This document shows positions 4,944 through 14,266 of a DNA stretch of 33,538 nucleotides, in pieces. Origin of the DNA: an uncultured Alphaproteobacteria bacterium (GTDB lineage: Bacteria > Pseudomonadota > Alphaproteobacteria > Bin95); assembly GCA_938083135.1 (NCBI GenBank), contig CALLKY010000078.1, positions 1 to 33,538 on the forward strand. Reading direction: 5' to 3'. The translations under genes and the position numbers were made by a program. The first letter of the stretch is position 1, and each line of letters starts with the position of its first letter. The notes below the pieces were generated by a model, which made no database searches, was not told where the DNA came from, and saw only the letters and a program-made list of their open reading frames with translations.

Positions 4944-4981
4944 ATAACGCAGCCATGCCAACATCACAGGAGACTGTGCCT

Positions 4982-5200
4982 ATGAAATTTCGCATCGAAT
5001 ATTGCGGCGCTTGAAACTACGAACCCAGAGCCCGCCGTGCGCGGGATGTTCTACAAGGCTTAGCGCCCGATACCGAGGTTGAGATTATCCGTGGCGGCGG
5101 CGGCGTGTTCGAGATTGAACGGGACGGCGCGCTCGTGTTTTCCAAAAAGGCGCTGGGGCGCTTCCCTGAGGAAAGCGAAATCAAAGCGCTGATTGGCTAA
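4982..5200 (+). CDS. SelW/Rdx-family selenoprotein with in-frame TGA (Sec)
   Basis: A 72-residue protein read through one TGA codon (5012-5014) at residue 11. It has the Rdx (SelW/SelT/SelH) thioredoxin-like layout: strand MKFRIEY, then the redox motif C8-G-A-U11, a helix rich in Arg and Ala, the glycine stretch RGGGGVFEI, RDGALVFSKK, and GRFPEESEI near the end. The TGA falls exactly where relatives have the second Cys of CxxC, and the frame stays open with family residues for 61 more codons to TAA 5198-5200. An AGGAG site (4968-4972) lies 9 nt before ATG 4982. It starts 38 nt after the MFS pair and precedes the MaoC pair, same strand. The role is probably a thiol/selenol redox protein, partner unknown. 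A plain stop or a decayed gene is unlikely given the intact downstream half. Confidence 0.9.
5021..5051 (+). promoter_or_regulatory. Candidate bacterial SECIS hairpin
   Basis: Six bases after the TGA (5012-5014) the mRNA can fold into a hairpin. An outer GAAC/GTTC pair (5021-5024 with 5048-5051) encloses a perfect CCCGC/GCGGG stem (5031-5035 with 5041-5045) and a five-base apical loop CGTGC. The loop G at 5037 is 23 nt after the TGA. A short apical loop with G at its first or second position at about this distance is what SelB-recognised bacterial SECIS elements usually show. The inner bulges are larger than in E. coli fdhF, so the exact fold is a proposal. Confidence 0.65.
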
Positions 5201-5287: not shown

Positions 5288-5773
5288 ATGGCTGATAAAG
5301 TCACCATGCCGGTGGAAGCGACGCATATCATGATGTTTGCGCGCTCCGTCAATGACGACAACCAAGTCTACTACGATGCTGATCATGCTGCGAAAACGGA
5401 AGTGGGCCATATTCTGCCGCCGCCAACGTTCTATCGCTCGGTCGCACAGTTTGATCCCGATTACTTCCTGCGCCCGAAGGTTGGCGAAAAGTGGTTCGGT
5501 TCTGCCAAAGGCCCGTCCGGCATTGACGAAAAGCCTGCCTCATCCGGCGGCCTGCATGCGGAACAGCATTTTGAATATCATCATCCGGTGAAACCCGGCG
5601 ATGTCCTGACCGTGACGACTCGGGACGGCGAGAAATGGGAGAAAGTCAGCGCGCGTGCTGGTAAGCTCATGTTCTCAGAAACCATTCAGGACTACCACAA
5701 TCAGGACGGCCTGCTTGTCGTCACGTCCCGGTCTGTCGGCGTGAAGACAGAGCGCCCGGTCGATCAAGGTTAA
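5288..5773 (+). CDS. MaoC-like hydratase subunit (FAS1-type dehydratase N-terminal domain)
   Basis: A 161-residue hotdog-fold protein resembling the N-terminal, FAS1-like half of MaoC dehydratases, the HadA/HadC-type subunit in mycobacterial pairs. It has PPPTFYRS near residue 45, a GGLHAEQHFEYHHPVKPGD segment in the middle and no hydratase-2 catalytic motif of its own. That is expected of the substrate-binding partner. A GGGAGG site sits just before ATG 5288. The active partner begins 13 nt after its stop. Together they should hydrate trans-2-enoyl-CoA or dehydrate 3-hydroxyacyl-CoA. The chain length accepted is not evident. Confidence 0.85.
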   Translation: MADKVTMPVEATHIMMFARSVNDDNQVYYDADHAAKTEVGHILPPPTFYRSVAQFDPDYFLRPKVGEKWFGSAKGPSGIDEKPASSGGLHAEQHFEYHHPVKPGDVLTVTTRDGEKWEKVSARAGKLMFSETIQDYHNQDGLLVVTSRSVGVKTERPVDQG

Positions 5774-5786
5774 AGGGAGAAGAGCA

Positions 5787-6194
5787 ATGGCGTTATCCGC
5801 ATCCAATCTCAAAGTCGGCGACACCCATGAAGAAGTCGTCGCTGAAAACCTCTCCCGCGGGCTGCTGGTTATGTATGCCGGCACATCGGGCGACTACAAT
5901 CCGCTCCACACGGATGAAGTCTACACCAAGGAAGTCGCTGGTTACCCAAGCGTCTTCGCCCACGGCATGCTGACCATGGGCCTGACCGGCAAAATGCTGA
6001 CAAACTATGTCGGCGACGGGCGGCTGAAGAAATATGGCGTCCGTTTCACCAACCAAGTGTGGCCAGGCGATACGCTGACATCGAAGGCGACTGTCGTCGA
6101 AATTCGGGACGGCGAATGCGACATCGAAGTCGCGACGACGAACCAGGACGGCAAAACCGTCGTCATGGGCAATGCGACAGCGCGCGTCGACTGA
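5787..6194 (+). CDS. MaoC-like (R)-specific enoyl-CoA hydratase, catalytic subunit
   Basis: A 135-residue single hotdog domain carrying the hydratase-2 motif YAGTSGDYNPLH (30-41), with the presumed catalytic pair D36 and H41, followed by FAHGML (57-62). Length and motif match the HadB-type subunit. The gene is preceded by AAGGGAG and lies 13 nt downstream of the FAS1-like subunit, so the two likely form a heterodimer. With the acyl-CoA dehydrogenase (1212) and the SDR (317) the neighbourhood supplies dehydrogenation, hydration and a second dehydrogenation of an acyl-CoA. No thiolase is visible in the window. Confidence 0.91.
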   Translation: MALSASNLKVGDTHEEVVAENLSRGLLVMYAGTSGDYNPLHTDEVYTKEVAGYPSVFAHGMLTMGLTGKMLTNYVGDGRLKKYGVRFTNQVWPGDTLTSKATVVEIRDGECDIEVATTNQDGKTVVMGNATARVD

Positions 6195-6249
6195 AGGTGC
6201 GCACACCCTCCTCACCCTAAAGCGCGTGTAGTCATAAATAGGCAGCCCG

Positions 6250-6300
6250 CGTGAGGGTCTCCTCTCCTCCCAACGGGGGGAGAGGGATCAGGGTGAGGGC
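6250..6300 (+). repeat. REP-like palindromic arm, pair A left
   Basis: The arm begins CGTGAGGGTCTCC and contains an internal hairpin in which CCTCT and C-rich bases pair with GGGGGGAGAGG around an AAC loop. It then ends AGGGTGAGGG. The first 38 bases are identical to 12644-12681. It is inverted relative to the arm at 6381-6440. Confidence 0.85.
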
Positions 6301-6380
6301 GGGGGTGCCTGCTACGCTAATAGAAATACGCAGGCGGAGAGAAACATCCGTTCTCTAATCTCCCGCCGCCTCCTGACCGA

Positions 6381-6440
6381 GACATCCCCCCTCACCCTCC
6401 CCTCTCCCCCCGCTGGGGGGCGAGGAGACCTGGGAGTGAG
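6381..6440 (-). repeat. REP-like palindromic arm, pair A right (inverted)
   Basis: This arm reads GACATCCCCCTCACCCT, then a C-rich half and GGGGGG half around GCT, then CGAGGAGACC. It is an imperfect reverse complement of 6250-6300 and closely matches the arm at 12764-12812. Confidence 0.85.
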
Positions 6441-6475
6441 GCCTCATTCTCTCATCCATACAGAGCATTCGCCCT

Positions 6476-7369
6476 ATGTCCCAAATCCGCCTTGGCGACC
6501 TAACGATTGACCGCGTTGTTGAGGGCGAGGGCAAAGCCTTTTTCCCCGGCTATATCTTCCCGGATGCTGATGACGCTGGCGTCGCTGCTGAAAAGCATTG
6601 GATGGAGCCGAATTTCCTGGACACATACTCTGGTCGCTTGCTCCAGGGCAACGCCACTTTTGTCGTGCGCCGCCCAGGCATGGTGCTGCTGGTCGATACC
6701 TGTGTCGGCAATGACAAAGACCGCCCCTCCTCCAAGACCTGGCACAAGCTGAGCACCGATTGGATGGACCAACTGAACGCCCTTGGCGTGCAGCCGGATG
6801 ACGTCACTCATGTGTTCAACACGCATCTTCACGTCGATCACTGCGGCTGGAATACGCGGCTGGACGGCGACCGCTGGGTCCCGACATTCCCCAATGCCAA
6901 ATATCTGTTCCCCAAAGACGAATTCGACTTCTGGGCCAATCCCGCCAATGACACCGTAACCGGCACCGGTGCCAATGATGGCTCTTATGCCGATAGCGTG
7001 CTACCGGTCTATGATGCAGGCCTTGCAAGATTGATTGAAGCTGGAGGGCGTGGTGGCGATGGTGCGTTCTGGTTCGAATCCGCCGCCGGTCACGCCCCAG
7101 GCCAACTCACACTGCATATGGACGCCGGGACGGAACAACTGGTCTTCACGGGCGACCTATTCCACAGCCCGCTCCAAATCGCGCGGCCCGAATGGTCCAG
7201 CAAGTTTGATGTAGACCGCAGTGGCGCCGCAGACGCCCGCCGCCAGTTCATCGCCAAACACGGTGACGCCGACAGCATGATCCTCTCCGCCCATGTCTGC
7301 ACACCGAACGCGGGGCGCATTGTTACGGAGGGCGGCAAATCCATCTTCCGCCTGCTGAAAGACCTGTAA
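6476..7369 (+). CDS. MBL-fold metallo-hydrolase (lactonase-like)
   Basis: A 297-residue metallo-beta-lactamase-fold protein with a complete dinuclear zinc site: HLHVDH (117-122) preceded by NT, GHAPGQ (H206), TGD (D227) and H273. The fold covers the whole length, as in the subgroup that includes N-acyl-homoserine lactonases and related esterases. There is no signal peptide, so it should be cytoplasmic. Its TAA shares one base with the ATG of the next gene (TAATG), so it is translationally coupled to a glutathione-transferase-like protein. The substrate is unknown; lactonase, glyoxalase-like or thioesterase activity would all fit the fold. Confidence 0.88.
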   Translation: MSQIRLGDLTIDRVVEGEGKAFFPGYIFPDADDAGVAAEKHWMEPNFLDTYSGRLLQGNATFVVRRPGMVLLVDTCVGNDKDRPSSKTWHKLSTDWMDQLNALGVQPDDVTHVFNTHLHVDHCGWNTRLDGDRWVPTFPNAKYLFPKDEFDFWANPANDTVTGTGANDGSYADSVLPVYDAGLARLIEAGGRGGDGAFWFESAAGHAPGQLTLHMDAGTEQLVFTGDLFHSPLQIARPEWSSKFDVDRSGAADARRQFIAKHGDADSMILSAHVCTPNAGRIVTEGGKSIFRLLKDL

Positions 7370-8010
7370 TGGAGCTTTTTTGGACGCCCGCATCCCCCTT
7401 CACCCGCAAAGTCTCCGTCGCGGCGCGGGAGCTTGGGCTTTGGGATGGGATCAAAATCCATAAAACCACCTGGCCCCATGATTGGGGCTACGCGACGGTG
7501 CCGTTCACCCCAGGATTGGCGGAGAATAATCCCATCGCCCGCATTCCAACACTGATCACGGATGATGGTGTGCCGCTCAGCTGCTCAACGCTGGCCTGCC
7601 AGTATCTGGACAGTCTCTCCGGCGGTCAGCTAACGGCACCAGATGCCTGGAAGATGTGGTCTCTCTACGCCATCGCCGACGGCCTAATTGAAGCGCAAAT
7701 TTTGATGCGGGCAGAAATGTTACGTCCCGCTGAGAACCGGATGGAGAGCTTCCTGCAAAAGCAGCGGGATCGGATCGACCGCTGCTTCGACGCTATCGAA
7801 GCCCGCGCTGGGGAGCTGCAATGTGGGGCTGAAGGCGGCCTGCCGAACCTTGCCGAAATCACCGTCGGCATAGCCTGCGGCTATCAGGATTGGCGCGAAT
7901 GGCTGCATGAATACCGGGATGAGCGGCCTCGGCTGACTTTCTGGTACACAGACTTCGCCAAGCGCCCGTCCATGGCCATTACTGAGCCCGCTGAAACGCC
8001 AGAGCGTTAA
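7369..8010 (+). CDS. Glutathione S-transferase family protein
   Basis: A 213-residue two-domain GST. The N-terminal thioredoxin-like part has the glutathione-site sequence TPASPFTRKVSVAAREL (about 6-22, Ser9 the likely activating residue) and the cis-proline loop RIPTLITDDG. The C-terminal half is helical. It starts on the last base of the upstream hydrolase stop codon, so the two are coupled. This suggests joint handling of an electrophile or glutathione conjugate (inference). Its TAA overlaps the stop codon of the convergent acetyltransferase by 3 nt. Confidence 0.88.
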   Translation: MELFWTPASPFTRKVSVAARELGLWDGIKIHKTTWPHDWGYATVPFTPGLAENNPIARIPTLITDDGVPLSCSTLACQYLDSLSGGQLTAPDAWKMWSLYAIADGLIEAQILMRAEMLRPAENRMESFLQKQRDRIDRCFDAIEARAGELQCGAEGGLPNLAEITVGIACGYQDWREWLHEYRDERPRLTFWYTDFAKRPSMAITEPAETPER

Positions 8011-8502: not shown

Positions 8503-9195
8503 TTACTCCAGCAATGCAAGAAAATGCCCGATCTCTTCCAGATCGGACCGACGGCGAACCATAAGCTCACGCGCCTCCTCGTCCTCACCCCATTGTTCCA
8601 GCTGCCAATCATCATCGATTTGGGCGGCGTCCGCAGCGGTGGTTGGCGTGATCTCACCCTCGACCAACGCCAGTGCGATCACTGCAGACCCTGCTGCTTG
8701 GGATGCGACGTGGGCTGCTGTGAGCCGAAACGGATCAAGTGCAGCAAAGGCCTGACGGATAGCGGCGATCGCGCTCTCTGGCTGCTCTACCGGCATGATA
8801 CCTTCTGCCAAAATTAACCGCGCGCCGTAGCGTTCCAGCAACCAGGCCAATAACGGGTCCCAGGCACCCGCTTGCCGCGCCACAAGCTTAGCGGGCGTTG
8901 GCGCGCGGTAGCATAAAAGGTCCGTTTCGGCGAAGCGGGTGACATCATCCACGAAGCGGCCTGGGTCTTCAGCGATCCTGTCTAGCGTCGCATAGGAAAG
9001 TGCTGTGAGCGGCATTGCTGCCATATCAAGCGTCTCGCCTTGGGCGCTCCATTCAGCAGCCGACGCCTCAGCCAGTTTGACGCTTGGGAAAGTCAGCTTC
9101 TGGCGTCCAGGCGTGCGCACAGGGCGATCATCCAGGCTGACTTCATATCCGCCTTCAACTGCGCGGGCTTCAGCTGATTCATAGAACCGTTTCAT
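8503..9195 (-). CDS. ATP12 family F1-ATPase assembly chaperone
   Basis: A 230-residue protein of the ATP12 family, which in mitochondria binds the F1 alpha subunit before hexamer assembly. Recognisable features are the start KRFYESAEARAVEGGYEVSLD, the LDDRPVRTPGRQ strand, AAEWSAQGE, the PLTALSYATLDRI helix, DLLCYRAP, and the acidic C-terminal half with DDDWQLEQWGEDEEA. The length is normal for alphaproteobacterial members. ATG 9195 overlaps the HAD gene stop as ATGA, part of a series of four such overlaps. The family is a useful marker of an alphaproteobacterial genome. Confidence 0.93.
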   Translation of the reverse strand: MKRFYESAEARAVEGGYEVSLDDRPVRTPGRQKLTFPSVKLAEASAAEWSAQGETLDMAAMPLTALSYATLDRIAEDPGRFVDDVTRFAETDLLCYRAPTPAKLVARQAGAWDPLLAWLLERYGARLILAEGIMPVEQPESAIAAIRQAFAALDPFRLTAAHVASQAAGSAVIALALVEGEITPTTAADAAQIDDDWQLEQWGEDEEARELMVRRRSDLEEIGHFLALLE

Positions 9196-9863
9196 GCAGC
9201 GCTGCCCAGAAATTCACGAACAGCGCCCGGCGCATCCGCATATTGGTGGATAATCTTTGTGGCACCATGGGCTTCCAAGTCTGATGGTGCGTGATACCCC
9301 CATGCGACACCCAGGCAATGCGCGCCAGCAGACCGCGCCATCGCCATGTCATAGGCAGTATCGCCGAGCATGACTGTCGTTGCCGGTGACGCGCCTACTT
9401 CCAGCATCGCATCTTCTAGGATCTTAGGGTGCGGCTTGCTTGGGCCGTCATCTGCCGTCTTCAGCACCGCAAACCAATCCAGAATGCCATGGGTCATAAG
9501 CGTCTTGCGCAAGCCACGCCGCCCCTTCCCCGTTGCGACACCAAGCGTAAACCCATCATCCCGAAGTGCTGCGAGTGCTTCTAATGCGCCCTCATACAGC
9601 GGCTCGTCATAGGCGGGATTAGATTCCTGCGCATGGAATATCGTCCTGAAACCCTCGACCAATTCCGCCAATTCTAGAGCATTCGCACTCGGTGCCAGTT
9701 TTTGCAGCGCCTGTGGCAATGCCAAGCCGACTATGCGCCGGATAGGCTCATCCTCTGGCGGTGTCATGCCTGCACCGGCCCAAGCGCCCCGCACGGCATC
9801 AATGATCCGTCGTTGGCTATCGACCAAGGTGCCGTCGCAATCGAATACAGCGAATTGCGTCAT
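9192..9863 (-). CDS. HAD hydrolase, phosphoglycolate-phosphatase-like
   Basis: A 223-residue haloacid dehalogenase-superfamily phosphatase with a helical cap after motif I. Motifs in order are DCDGT (nucleophile D8, acid/base D10), T111 in VATGKG, K143 in SKPHPK and the metal-binding GDTAYD (D168, D172). The sequence is closest to Gph-like phosphatases acting on small phosphate esters such as phosphoglycolate; the exact substrate is not certain. ATGA overlaps join it both to the pseudouridine synthase upstream and to ATP12 downstream. The same HAD-ATP12 neighbourhood is common in Alphaproteobacteria. Confidence 0.92.
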   Translation of the reverse strand: MTQFAVFDCDGTLVDSQRRIIDAVRGAWAGAGMTPPEDEPIRRIVGLALPQALQKLAPSANALELAELVEGFRTIFHAQESNPAYDEPLYEGALEALAALRDDGFTLGVATGKGRRGLRKTLMTHGILDWFAVLKTADDGPSKPHPKILEDAMLEVGASPATTVMLGDTAYDMAMARSAGAHCLGVAWGYHAPSDLEAHGATKIIHQYADAPGAVREFLGSAA

Positions 9864-10861
9864 CGGAAGTCCTCATCGAGCAAGCGGTCGCCCGCTTCAC
9901 CCGGCACAAAGCCAAAGGTCGACATCGCCTCGTGGAATGCTGCTGGCAAGTCCGCGTGTATCCGTAATCTGCCACGCTCCGTTGGGTGCGGAATATCAAG
10001 TGCGCGGGCATGCAACATCATGCCTTTTGGCAGGCCCATACCTGGCACTCGCGCATCTTCTCCGCCATATTTACCGTCACCCAAAATCGGATGGCCAATA
10101 GCAGCCATGTGCGCGCGAAGTTGATGTGTGCGGCCCGTTTGCGGCAATAGCCCCACGAAAGAGGCGGCCTTGCCTGCCTTTTCCAGCGTTGCATAAAACG
10201 TAATTGCCCGGTCGCCTTCAGGGTCATCCCAGACCATGCGCTCATTGCCGCGACTACCGGCCTTCTTCAGCGCAAGATCAATCTTGCCGCGCGCCGGATC
10301 AGGCACGCCAGCAACCAGCGCCCAGTACAGCTTCTTGGCGGACCGGTCCCGGAAAGACGCCGTTAGCTTCGCCGCAGATTTCTGCGTCCGCGCTAGCAGC
10401 AGCACGCCAGACGTATCCCGGTCGAGCCGATGGACCAGCCGTGGCCGTTCACCGCCCTCTGCCAGCGCATCCAGCATCCCATCCACATGACGCGTCGTGC
10501 CAGTGCCGCCTTGCGCCGCGAGGCCGGGCGGTTTGTCGATGGCGATGGCCGAAGCGTCCTGATAGATCACCGCCGACTGGATCATGTCAGCGTCCGCGTC
10601 TGATACTTCCTTGCGTTTGGGCGCTGGCGGCGGTTTGGCGCGGAATGTCTGCGCATCGCCAAGCGGCGGCACACGAACAATCTGGCCCTCTTCCACCCGG
10701 TCGCCCGATTTGACGCGCTTGCCGTCCAGCCGGATCTGGCCAGAGCGTGCGAGCTTCTGCAAACGCCCATGGGTCAGGTCCGGATACCGGCGCTTGAACC
10801 ATTTATCGATCCGGAGCCCGGCTTCCGCCGCGCGCACCGCCAATTGCTGTACGCCGCTCAT
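9860..10861 (-). CDS. RluC/RluD-family 23S rRNA pseudouridine synthase
   Basis: A 333-residue protein with an N-terminal S4 RNA-binding domain (about 15-65: LRIDKWFKRRYPDLTHGRLQ onward) and a pseudouridine synthase domain bearing HRLDRDTSG (144-152) with the presumed catalytic D147. Later family motifs FVGLLPQTGRTHQLR and HPILGDGKYGG are also present. It converts uridines in 23S rRNA to pseudouridine. RluC is the best match by layout, but RluD cannot be excluded. It overlaps crcB upstream and the HAD gene downstream by 4 nt each. Confidence 0.92.
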   Translation of the reverse strand: MSGVQQLAVRAAEAGLRIDKWFKRRYPDLTHGRLQKLARSGQIRLDGKRVKSGDRVEEGQIVRVPPLGDAQTFRAKPPPAPKRKEVSDADADMIQSAVIYQDASAIAIDKPPGLAAQGGTGTTRHVDGMLDALAEGGERPRLVHRLDRDTSGVLLLARTQKSAAKLTASFRDRSAKKLYWALVAGVPDPARGKIDLALKKAGSRGNERMVWDDPEGDRAITFYATLEKAGKAASFVGLLPQTGRTHQLRAHMAAIGHPILGDGKYGGEDARVPGMGLPKGMMLHARALDIPHPTERGRLRIHADLPAAFHEAMSTFGFVPGEAGDRLLDEDFR

Positions 10862-11247
10862 ACCGCACCCCGCATTAATTTCAGTCCCAATACAAATCCG
10901 CCAAGCCCCGCCGCGACGGAGCCCAGCACATAAAAAGCCGCCAGTGCCGCCTCACCCCGTTGCCAAAGCGACAAGGCATCCAGCGAGAATGACGAGAACG
11001 TTGTGAAGCCGCCGAGCAGACCAACAGCCAGCAGCAACCGCGCATCCTGCGCCCGTCCGCTATCGCCCATCAGCCCATGCGCCATTGCACCGACAAATAG
11101 CCCCATAGCGAGCGAGCCCGCCACATTGCAAATCACTGTACCCCACGGAAATCCCATCCCGAAGGCACGCATCGAGGCGATCCCGACGCCATAGCGTAGG
11201 CCGGCCCCCACACCGCCACCTATCATGACAAAAAGCAGGCCCTTCAT
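10858..11247 (-). CDS. crcB: CrcB/FluC fluoride channel
   Basis: A 129-residue four-helix inner-membrane protein of the Fluc family, which exports fluoride as a dual-topology dimer. Diagnostic motifs are GGGVGAGLRY (10-19), FPWGTVICNVAGS (33-45) with the conserved Asn, and GGFTTFSSFSLDAL (about 79-92) with the phenylalanine/threonine stretch lining the pore. It is a single full-length copy, as expected for a homodimeric channel. It overlaps rarA and the RluC-like gene by ATGA. No fluoride riboswitch could sit directly upstream because the start lies inside the rarA coding end. Confidence 0.95.
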   Translation of the reverse strand: MKGLLFVMIGGGVGAGLRYGVGIASMRAFGMGFPWGTVICNVAGSLAMGLFVGAMAHGLMGDSGRAQDARLLLAVGLLGGFTTFSSFSLDALSLWQRGEAALAAFYVLGSVAAGLGGFVLGLKLMRGAV

Positions 11248-12584
11248 TTGCCTGCTCCTTCATCGTCGTCAATGTCGCGCCCATCTTCGCGTTGCGCACG
11301 TATGCGTTCGAAGTAAGCCAAGCGCTTTGCGGCATCCCGTTCGAAGCCGCGTTCGACAGGCGCATAATATTTGGCGCGGGGCATGCCGTCCGGGAAGTAG
11401 TTCTGGCCGGAAAACGCTTCGTCTGCGTCATGGTCATAGGCATAACCAGCACCATAGCCCAAGTCTTTCATGAGCTTGGTCGGCGCATTCAAAATATGGG
11501 CTGGCGGCGTCAATGATCCGGTTTCCTTGGCGGCCCGCATCGCCTGCCCGTAGGCCTTGTACACGGCGTTCGATTTGGGTGCGATGGCCAGATAGACAAT
11601 TGCTTCCGCAATCGCCAGCTCCCCTTCCGGCGAACCGATGCGTTCATAATGCTCCCAAGCGCTGAGCGCCAGGGGAAGCGCCTGCGGATCAGCGAGCCCA
11701 ACATCCTCAGACGCGAACCGGGCGACACGGCGGGCGATGTAACGCGGGTCTTCACCGCCAGAAATCATCCGCGCGAACCAATACAATGCGGCGTCAGGGT
11801 CCGATCCGCGCATGGATTTATGCAGCGCCGAGATAAGATTGTAGTGGCCTTCTTGGGATTTGTCGTAGATCGGCGCCCGTTTCTGGACGACGGCGGCGAG
11901 GCCCGCAGCATCCAGCACCGGCTTTGGTGGCAGTCGGGCGAGTTCATCCACCAGGTTCAGCAGGTAGCGGCCATCGCCATCAGCCATGGCTTTCAAGGCC
12001 GCACGGGCATCATCGTTCAGCGGCAAGGAATGGCCAGCTTCGTCTTCAGCGCGGGCAATGAGTGTTTCAAGTGCAGCATCATCCAGCCGTGACAGGACCA
12101 GCACCTGACACCGGGACAGCAGCGCGGAATTCAGCTCAAACGAAGGGTTTTCAGTGGTGGCACCGACAAGCACCACCGTGCCGTCCTCAACAAAGGGCAG
12201 GAAGCCGTCCTGCTGGGCGCGATTAAAGCGGTGGATTTCGTCCACGAACAGCAGCGTGCCCTGCCCCATCAACCGGCGCTGCTTCGCCGCCTCAAAGGCC
12301 TTACGCAAATCCGCTACGCCAGAAAACACGGCGGACAGGGACATGAATTCAAGGTCAACCGCACCAGCAAGCAAGCGCGCAATTGTTGTTTTGCCGCACC
12401 CAGGCGGGCCCCAGAGAATGAGGCTGGCGAGGCGCCGTTCGCCGAGCATCCGCGCCAGCGGCCCATCTGGGCCAAGCACGCCTTCCTGCCCCACAACTTC
12501 CCCTAACACGCTCGGGCGCAAGCGATCCGCAAGCGGGCGCGACGTGGACTGCTCCAGACCAGCGGCTTCGAAGAGGCTGGACAT
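11244..12584 (-). CDS. rarA: Replication-associated recombination protein A (AAA+ ATPase)
   Basis: A 446-residue member of the RarA/MgsA/WRNIP1 family, clamp-loader-like ATPases that act at stalled replication forks. Visible are the N-terminal RPLADRLRPSVLGEVVGQE, Walker A GPPGCGKT (59-66), Walker B LLFVDEIH (111-118), sensor GATTENPSFELNSALLSRC and the tetramerisation region with RDPDAALYWFARM-like sequence (here SDPDAALYW). ATG 12584 is chosen; a GTG at 12608 would add eight residues without a better ribosome site. Just upstream lies an inverted repeat pair (12644-12812), so promoter activity or transcript processing there may matter. Confidence 0.94.
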   Translation of the reverse strand: MSSLFEAAGLEQSTSRPLADRLRPSVLGEVVGQEGVLGPDGPLARMLGERRLASLILWGPPGCGKTTIARLLAGAVDLEFMSLSAVFSGVADLRKAFEAAKQRRLMGQGTLLFVDEIHRFNRAQQDGFLPFVEDGTVVLVGATTENPSFELNSALLSRCQVLVLSRLDDAALETLIARAEDEAGHSLPLNDDARAALKAMADGDGRYLLNLVDELARLPPKPVLDAAGLAAVVQKRAPIYDKSQEGHYNLISALHKSMRGSDPDAALYWFARMISGGEDPRYIARRVARFASEDVGLADPQALPLALSAWEHYERIGSPEGELAIAEAIVYLAIAPKSNAVYKAYGQAMRAAKETGSLTPPAHILNAPTKLMKDLGYGAGYAYDHDADEAFSGQNYFPDGMPRAKYYAPVERGFERDAAKRLAYFERIRAQREDGRDIDDDEGAGK

Positions 12585-12643
12585 TAGCCTGTGCCTTGAG
12601 CGTGACACATGTCCGCAATTGCGTGTTCCTTGCAGAAACCCTT

Positions 12644-12696
12644 CGTGAGGGTCTCCTCTCCTCCCAACGGGGGGAGAGGGAACAGGGTGAGGGGGG
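12644..12696 (+). repeat. REP-like palindromic arm, pair B left
   Basis: This arm begins CGTGAGGGTCTCC and is identical to 6250-6287 for 38 bases, then AACAGGGTGAGG where the other copy has ATCAGGGTGAGG. It contains an internal hairpin around an AAC loop. Confidence 0.87.
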
Positions 12697-12763
12697 CTGT
12701 CTCAATTAGCGAAAGACTTGCGCGACAGTACGATGGACCTGGCTGAATCCATGTAACGAGGGC

Positions 12764-12812
12764 GACATCCCCCTCACCCTGCCCTCTCCCCCCGTAGGGG
12801 GGCGAGGATCCC
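12764..12812 (-). repeat. REP-like palindromic arm, pair B right (inverted)
   Basis: It reads GACATCCCCCTCACCCT, a C-rich half, GTA loop, GGGGGG half and CGAGGATCC. It is inverted relative to 12644-12696 and nearly the same as 6381-6426. Confidence 0.85.
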
Positions 12813-12850
12813 TCTTGCAAGGCCGCGATCTTATCTGTCCAACCCATCCC

Positions 12851-14266
12851 CTAACTCACATTCAGCACATGCAACTTATCGCCCCGACGGACAACAAAAC
12901 GCCAGCGGCGGAGGCGCTTGCCTGCTATCTCCAGTAAGTCGCGAACGGACGCAACTGGCGCATCATTCACTTCCACAATCACATCACCGGGCCGCAGCCC
13001 CAGCCGACGGGCAAAGCTGCGGCCTTTTACGTCCAGCACAACAACGCCGTCGCCCTCTACGTTCAGGCCATATTCTTCCTTGACGGCAGGTGAAAGGTTG
13101 GCGACTTCAACGCCATCCAGTGGGCTGCCTGTGTTCAGCGTCACTTGATCCCGCGGAACCGTTTCAGGCGGCGCTTCCAGGCGCACGGAAGCGCTGAAGG
13201 GCTTGCCGCGCCGCCAAAATTCAATCTCCGACTGATCGCCGATCTGCTTCGTGGATATCCGGAATCGCAGTTCTACCGGGTCGCGGATCATGCGGCCATC
13301 AATGGCTAGCACAACATCGCCTTGGGCTATGCCAGCACGGCCAAGTGGGCCTGCAGGGTCCACGGAATCAAGCAGCACACCGCTTGGCGGCGACAGGCCA
13401 ATAGCCGCTGCGATATCGGCTGTAACTTCCTGCCCCTGCGCACCGAGCCACGGACGGACGACACGGCCACCCGTGCGTGCAGCCTCAACCATGCGGCGGA
13501 CAAGGCTGGAGGGTATGGCGAAACCAATGCCCATGCTCCCACCGCTTCTGGAATAAATCGCCGTATTCACGCCAATCACCCGGCCCTGCATGTCGACGAG
13601 CGCACCGCCGGAATTACCTGGATTGATGGCAGCATCCGTTTGGATGAACACGCCAAAATCCGTCAACCCCGGTCGCGACCTCGCAAGTGCGGAGACAATG
13701 CCGCTGGTTACCGTTTGGCCAACACCGAATGGATTGCCGATCGCCAGTACCAGATCACCGACTTCAATCTTCTCAGACGGCCCCAGTTCTGCGATGGGTA
13801 GGCTCTGCCCTTCTGGATCAATACGCAGCACGGCAAGGTCAGAACGTTCATCCGCTTGCACGACCTCCGCCGCAAATTCCCGCCTGTCGTTTAGAACAAC
13901 ACGGATTTCGTCGGCACCCTCAATGACGTGCATATTGGTGACGACCATCCCGTCGCCAGAAACAATAACCCCAGAGCCGAGCGAAGATTCAGACCGCTCC
14001 TGCGCGCCGCCCGGAAAACGGTCCCCGAAAAACCGGCGGAAGAATGGGTCATCAAATAGGGGTGAGGCCCGGCGTTCCCGCACCGTTGTTCGGGTGAAAA
14101 TATTCACGACAGCCGGTGCTACGCGCTTCACAAGCGGAGAAAACGATAGCTGTATCTCTGTGCTTGATTGCGGCACGACGCGCGATTGTGCTTGTGCTTG
14201 CCCAGCGGCAGCAAGCGTTAGGACTGTTGTCAGCGCCAATGCGCTCGATTTGATCCAATGTTTCAT
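12851..14266 (-). CDS. Deg/HtrA family periplasmic serine protease with two PDZ domains
   Basis: A 471-residue exported protease/chaperone. The signal peptide MKHWIKSSALALTTVLTLAA ends near AQA at 24-26. The trypsin-like domain has H113 (TNMHVI), D143 (RSDLAVL) and S219 (GNSGGAL), all intact. PDZ1 covers about 275-365 (GVLLDSVDPAGPLGRAGI) and PDZ2 about 385-471 (GVVVLDVKGRSFARRLGLRPGD). It should degrade or refold damaged envelope proteins. A hairpin-bearing repeat pair separates it from rarA, so it may be transcribed separately from the overlapping genes beyond. It could be called DegP, DegQ or MucD; these are not distinguishable here. Confidence 0.94.
   Translation of the reverse strand: MKHWIKSSALALTTVLTLAAAGQAQAQSRVVPQSSTEIQLSFSPLVKRVAPAVVNIFTRTTVRERRASPLFDDPFFRRFFGDRFPGGAQERSESSLGSGVIVSGDGMVVTNMHVIEGADEIRVVLNDRREFAAEVVQADERSDLAVLRIDPEGQSLPIAELGPSEKIEVGDLVLAIGNPFGVGQTVTSGIVSALARSRPGLTDFGVFIQTDAAINPGNSGGALVDMQGRVIGVNTAIYSRSGGSMGIGFAIPSSLVRRMVEAARTGGRVVRPWLGAQGQEVTADIAAAIGLSPPSGVLLDSVDPAGPLGRAGIAQGDVVLAIDGRMIRDPVELRFRISTKQIGDQSEIEFWRRGKPFSASVRLEAPPETVPRDQVTLNTGSPLDGVEVANLSPAVKEEYGLNVEGDGVVVLDVKGRSFARRLGLRPGDVIVEVNDAPVASVRDLLEIAGKRLRRWRFVVRRGDKLHVLNVS

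Follow-up and report, generated by a model that had tools for sequence, protein, structure and literature searches.

A SelW-like selenoprotein gene with a covariation-supported SECIS element in an uncultured alphaproteobacterium

Bacterial SelW-like selenoproteins, on record from 2005 at the latest, are the commonest selenoprotein family in marine surveys (PMC1088965, PMC2398784). Published limits for the bacterial SECIS hairpin (bSECIS) are a loop of 3–9 nt with G in one of its first two positions, an upper stem of 4–16 bp, a spacing of 16–37 nt and a minimum free energy of at most −7.5 (PMC13188914). Here we describe a gene of this kind in a 33,538-nt stretch of DNA (the window) from an uncultured alphaproteobacterium. 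By every computational test applied it is a real selenoprotein gene, and its family is already well known and abundant in marine bacteria, which agrees with the initial annotation. Features of the locus are listed in Table 1.

The gene comprises 73 codons including the stop, with a single in-frame TGA as codon 11 and 61 sense codons after it. The TGA occupies the second position of a CxxC motif (C8-G-A-U11). Read through with Sec (U) at position 11, the translation is MKFRIEYCGAUNYEPRARRARDVLQGLAPDTEVEIIRGGGGVFEIERDGALVFSKKALGRFPEESEIKALIG. The initial annotation had given these coordinates, the codon count, the place of the TGA in the motif, a ribosome site ahead of the ATG, and the downstream frame with its blocks RGGGGVFEI, GALVFSKK and GRFPEESEI; the sequence bears it out on each point. 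An unbiased six-frame Pfam Rdx scan across the source genome (99.99% complete; 4.15 Mb in 163 contigs) returned this gene, with one TGA inside, as its sole match (E 5.6e-15), which puts it well outside what chance would give. The read-through protein scores 65.7 bits against Pfam Rdx (PF10262; cut-off 22.6, E 4.4e-18), and the alignment is nearly full length, with residues 4–71 on profile positions 3–72 of 74. Against NCBIfam NF041051 (SelTWH_Campy, SelT/SelW/SelH family (seleno)protein) it reaches 90.4 bits, barely above the equivalog cut-off of 88. When the TGA is left as a stop in a six-frame search this score falls to 81.5, below the cut-off, and routine scans would therefore miss the gene. 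Rfam identified no family within the window.

Table 1. Positions of the SelW-like gene, its elements and its neighbours in the window
Feature	Position	Strand	Remarks
selW-like (Rdx) selenoprotein gene	4982..5200	+	72 residues, Sec at 11, stop TAA
Shine-Dalgarno-like AGGAGA	4968..4973	+	~9 nt 5' of ATG; basis: sequence
CxxU redox motif	5003..5014	+	Cys8 (TGC) Gly Ala Sec11; TGA at 5012-5014
Predicted bacterial SECIS upper hairpin	5031..5045	+	CCCGC (5031-5035), loop CGUGC (5036-5040), GCGGG (5041-5045)
Two MaoC/FAS1-dehydratase-like genes, metallo-beta-lactamase-fold gene, GST	5288..8010	+	Between SelW and GNAT-ATP12; this lineage only, as far as compared loci show
ATP12 chaperone gene	8503..9195	-	Direct SelW neighbour in same-genus G002 (L033)
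HAD, RluC-like, CrcB, RarA/MgsA, DegP/Do-like protease genes	9192..14266	-	Syntenic with L033

The initial annotation had described no SECIS. A candidate hairpin of five base pairs with a 5-nt loop lies 21 nt after the TGA, carries GU at 5037–5038 (G at loop position 2) and folds at −10.8 kcal/mol, all within the bSECIS limits. Covariation was assessed on 24 distinct sequences and 500 shuffles. In the helix 95% of cells are paired and 23 cells are compensatory, both sides having changed with the pair kept; none of the 500 shuffles equals it in percentage paired, in compensatory cells or in covariation score. The signal is lost once the register is slid, every slid register being far lower, and RNAalifold independently returns exactly the same five pairs. 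Codons track one another from arm to arm, Leu CTC going with AGG, AGA or AGC and Arg CGC with CGG or CGA. In 27 of 28 genes GT closes the loop codon, whose residue nonetheless varies between Arg, Gly and Ser, and CGT is rare among the other Arg codons of the same genes (8/151). When genes are recoded with the protein held fixed, hairpin and GU arise jointly in 0.1–2% of cases for nearly all members (P 0.001–0.02), and in 1.1% for the window gene (P 0.011). Covariation and loop-codon conservation thus support the predicted SECIS.

The consensus helix is not kept in full by three divergent relatives: L050 forms two of five pairs and has no GU, L027 forms three and L048 four. Folding energy of the window element is unexceptional against shuffles, with a z of −1.0 for a 44-nt stretch, longer stretches giving values close to or above 0; for the family, the mean z against synonymous recoding is −0.5, which is not significant. 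Energy alone being uninformative, the case for the SECIS is made by the covariation and by the codon test with the protein fixed.

Gene order in the window runs from a short-chain dehydrogenase gene on the other strand through an acyl-CoA dehydrogenase and two MFS transporters to SelW, then two MaoC-type dehydratases, the metallo-beta-lactamase-fold protein and GST; on the other strand there follow GNAT, ATP12, HAD, RluC-like, CrcB, RarA and the DegP-like protease. The initial annotation had drawn attention to a setting inside an acyl-CoA operon. SelW does lie between the MFS and MaoC pairs, all on one strand, with 38 and 87 nt separating it from its neighbours, and no terminator-like site was called on the + strand nearby, all of which would suit a single pathway operon with the flanking MFS, MaoC and acyl-CoA dehydrogenase genes. 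The weight given to this setting is not sustained, since neither MFS nor MaoC genes stand beside SelW at any of the relatives' loci compared. In the same-genus genome G002, SelW instead meets ATP12 tail to tail, HAD, RluC, CrcB, RarA and DegP coming next in unchanged order, and in genus g2 it lies directly 5' of a DegP-like gene. Adjacency in one lineage being weak evidence of function, we regard such an operon as improbable. Recruitment of SelW in this lineage to an acyl-CoA/MaoC/GST operon, where it would be the selenol reductant dedicated to a thiol- or thioester-handling step of that pathway, is likewise improbable.

Because ATP12 adjoins SelW in G002, it would belong to an older SelW neighbourhood. 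The few genomes compared suggest that SelW forms the edge of an ATP12-to-DegP neighbourhood and that the adjacent acyl-CoA genes are lineage-specific. A close relative, G003, keeps the metallo-beta-lactamase-fold, GST, GNAT and ATP12 genes, and its contig stops short of the place expected for SelW; the ATP12 cluster is also present in G001. A search for conserved neighbours across relatives gave as its largest cluster what look like ORFs antisense to SelW itself, and this cluster was discarded.

The initial annotation had proposed looking in the rest of the genome for selA, selB, selC and selD, and would have abandoned the gene had selB or selC been absent from it. All four are present. selA (E 1.3e-159) is followed by selB (E 2.7e-135) on contig 138, the two adjacent with overlapping ends. 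The tRNA-Sec gene (selC) is on contig 98, above the Rfam cut-off, and ARAGORN calls it too, giving TCA as its anticodon. selD is part of an Ndh-SelD fusion, 728 residues long and bearing the motif GGCGAK, its selD domain scoring above its own cut-off; such fusions are already known from GOS data (PMC2398784). Nesting of selC inside selB is known in other Alphaproteobacteria (PMC8124441) and is ruled out here, selC lying on another contig than selA-selB; ARAGORN found no tRNA in the selA-selB stretch. A putative tyrosine-recombinase/phage-type integrase gene (L010:1501-2819, contig 98), so read from the look of its protein and not from a family search, starts ~60 nt after the tRNA-Sec, and with such a neighbour selC may be where a mobile element integrates.

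Relatives gathered by protein similarity comprise 27 distinct genes sharing the CxxU motif. They range from the same genus out to records labelled Gammaproteobacteria, Gemmatimonadetes, Planctomycetota, Calditrichaeota and a Thermohalobacter strain. Cys8, position 11, Tyr13, Ser54, Lys55, Gly59 and Arg60 are invariant. Comparison at the TGA had been suggested from the outset, with frameshifts and loss of conservation after it named as the signs of a false call; the TGA stands at the same codon in all 27, the Rdx frame downstream is intact and conserved, and the Cys-type protein 2fa8 has CTQC. A scan of viral contigs revealed no relatives, and plasmid matches were weaker Rdx relatives, every one below 60% identity. 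Among 387 genomes drawn evenly from the class, selB occurs in 29 of the 30 with a TGA-interrupted Rdx gene versus 2 of the 22 with an uninterrupted one (Fisher P 4e-11; one further genome, with TAA inside its Rdx match, was excluded). The TGA-Rdx genome that lacks a selB match is G174, possibly owing to a fragmentary assembly.

These data bear on two other readings of the TGA. The inserted residue is invisible to computational tools, so that Trp or Cys, say, could be placed there by near-cognate read-through or a reassigned code; the dedicated tRNA-Sec(TCA), selA, selB and selD of this genome, together with the uninterrupted gene of relatives without selB, leave this a very slim chance. That a Cys codon (TGC/TGT), one base away from TGA, was mutated or missequenced in a dead or Cys-type Rdx gene, in what is after all an assembly of 163 contigs, has next to no probability and is refuted by conservation of TGA, frame and protein in relatives from several phyla, the covarying SECIS and the co-occurrence of selB also counting against it.

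The same genome has at least five other redoxin or AhpD-like genes interrupted by a TGA. Three AhpC/TSA-family redoxin genes (L074, L075 and L080, on contigs 1, 4 and 20) have an in-frame TGA as the U of WUPYC and are probably Prx-like (SelL-related) UxxC selenoproteins. A TlpA/redoxin-domain protein (L078, contig 59) has its TGA in WASWUGCR (U-G-C motif), with a GU-loop hairpin downstream, and is probably a selenoprotein too. An AhpD-related protein with a CLYUT motif (L084:565-1638, contig 30) matches the (seleno)protein equivalog NCBIfam NF041238 (E 9e-128) and, judged by its sequence, is another. The full-length formate dehydrogenase homologue of this genome has no in-frame stop. The organism seems to use Sec regularly in its redox proteins. 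Two smaller genomes of the same genus, G001 and G004, keep selB and have no Rdx match; Sec decoding there must serve other selenoproteins.

With frame, TGA, SECIS, machinery, conservation and fold established by computation, the gene almost certainly encodes a 72-residue SelW-like (Rdx) selenoprotein whose UGA is read as Sec by means of the SECIS, giving the redox motif Cys8-Gly-Ala-Sec11. For the actual insertion and redox chemistry we infer the following. SelB with Sec-tRNA-Sec would bind the hairpin downstream of the UGA, and selenocysteine would be inserted there, which would put the motif where the first strand of a thioredoxin-like fold ends. Sec11 would most likely form a selenenylsulfide with Cys8, electrons being passed to or from a partner protein. 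By analogy with its family the protein is probably a small thiol/selenol oxidoreductase, most likely cytosolic.

An ordinary gene caller can be expected to overlook or cut short a gene of this type, whose host genome reads UGA as Sec in several redox proteins. To the SelW-like family the gene adds a well-supported case with a covariation-backed SECIS within the coding region, and it leaves the general picture of selenoproteins unchanged. An AlphaFold2 model built with 26 relatives has a pLDDT of 96.6 and places C8-G-A-U11 after strand 2–8. The best PDB matches found by Foldseek are Cys-type SelW-related chains, with mouse SelW also among the matches. Agrobacterium Atu0228 (2fa8), a Cys-type Rdx protein, shares the fold (TM-score 0.85, 40% identity) and carries a Cys where the window protein has Sec, at the second position of the motif. 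Mouse SelW (2npb) has the same fold at a TM-score of 0.69 and 32% identity. With the bacterial SelW-like (SELENOW-like, PF10262) proteins of the Sargasso Sea and GOS data (PMC1088965, PMC2398784) the window protein shares a small Rdx domain, CxxU and a bacterial SECIS after the UGA; it differs from them only in organism and gene neighbourhood, the mechanism being alike as far as seen.
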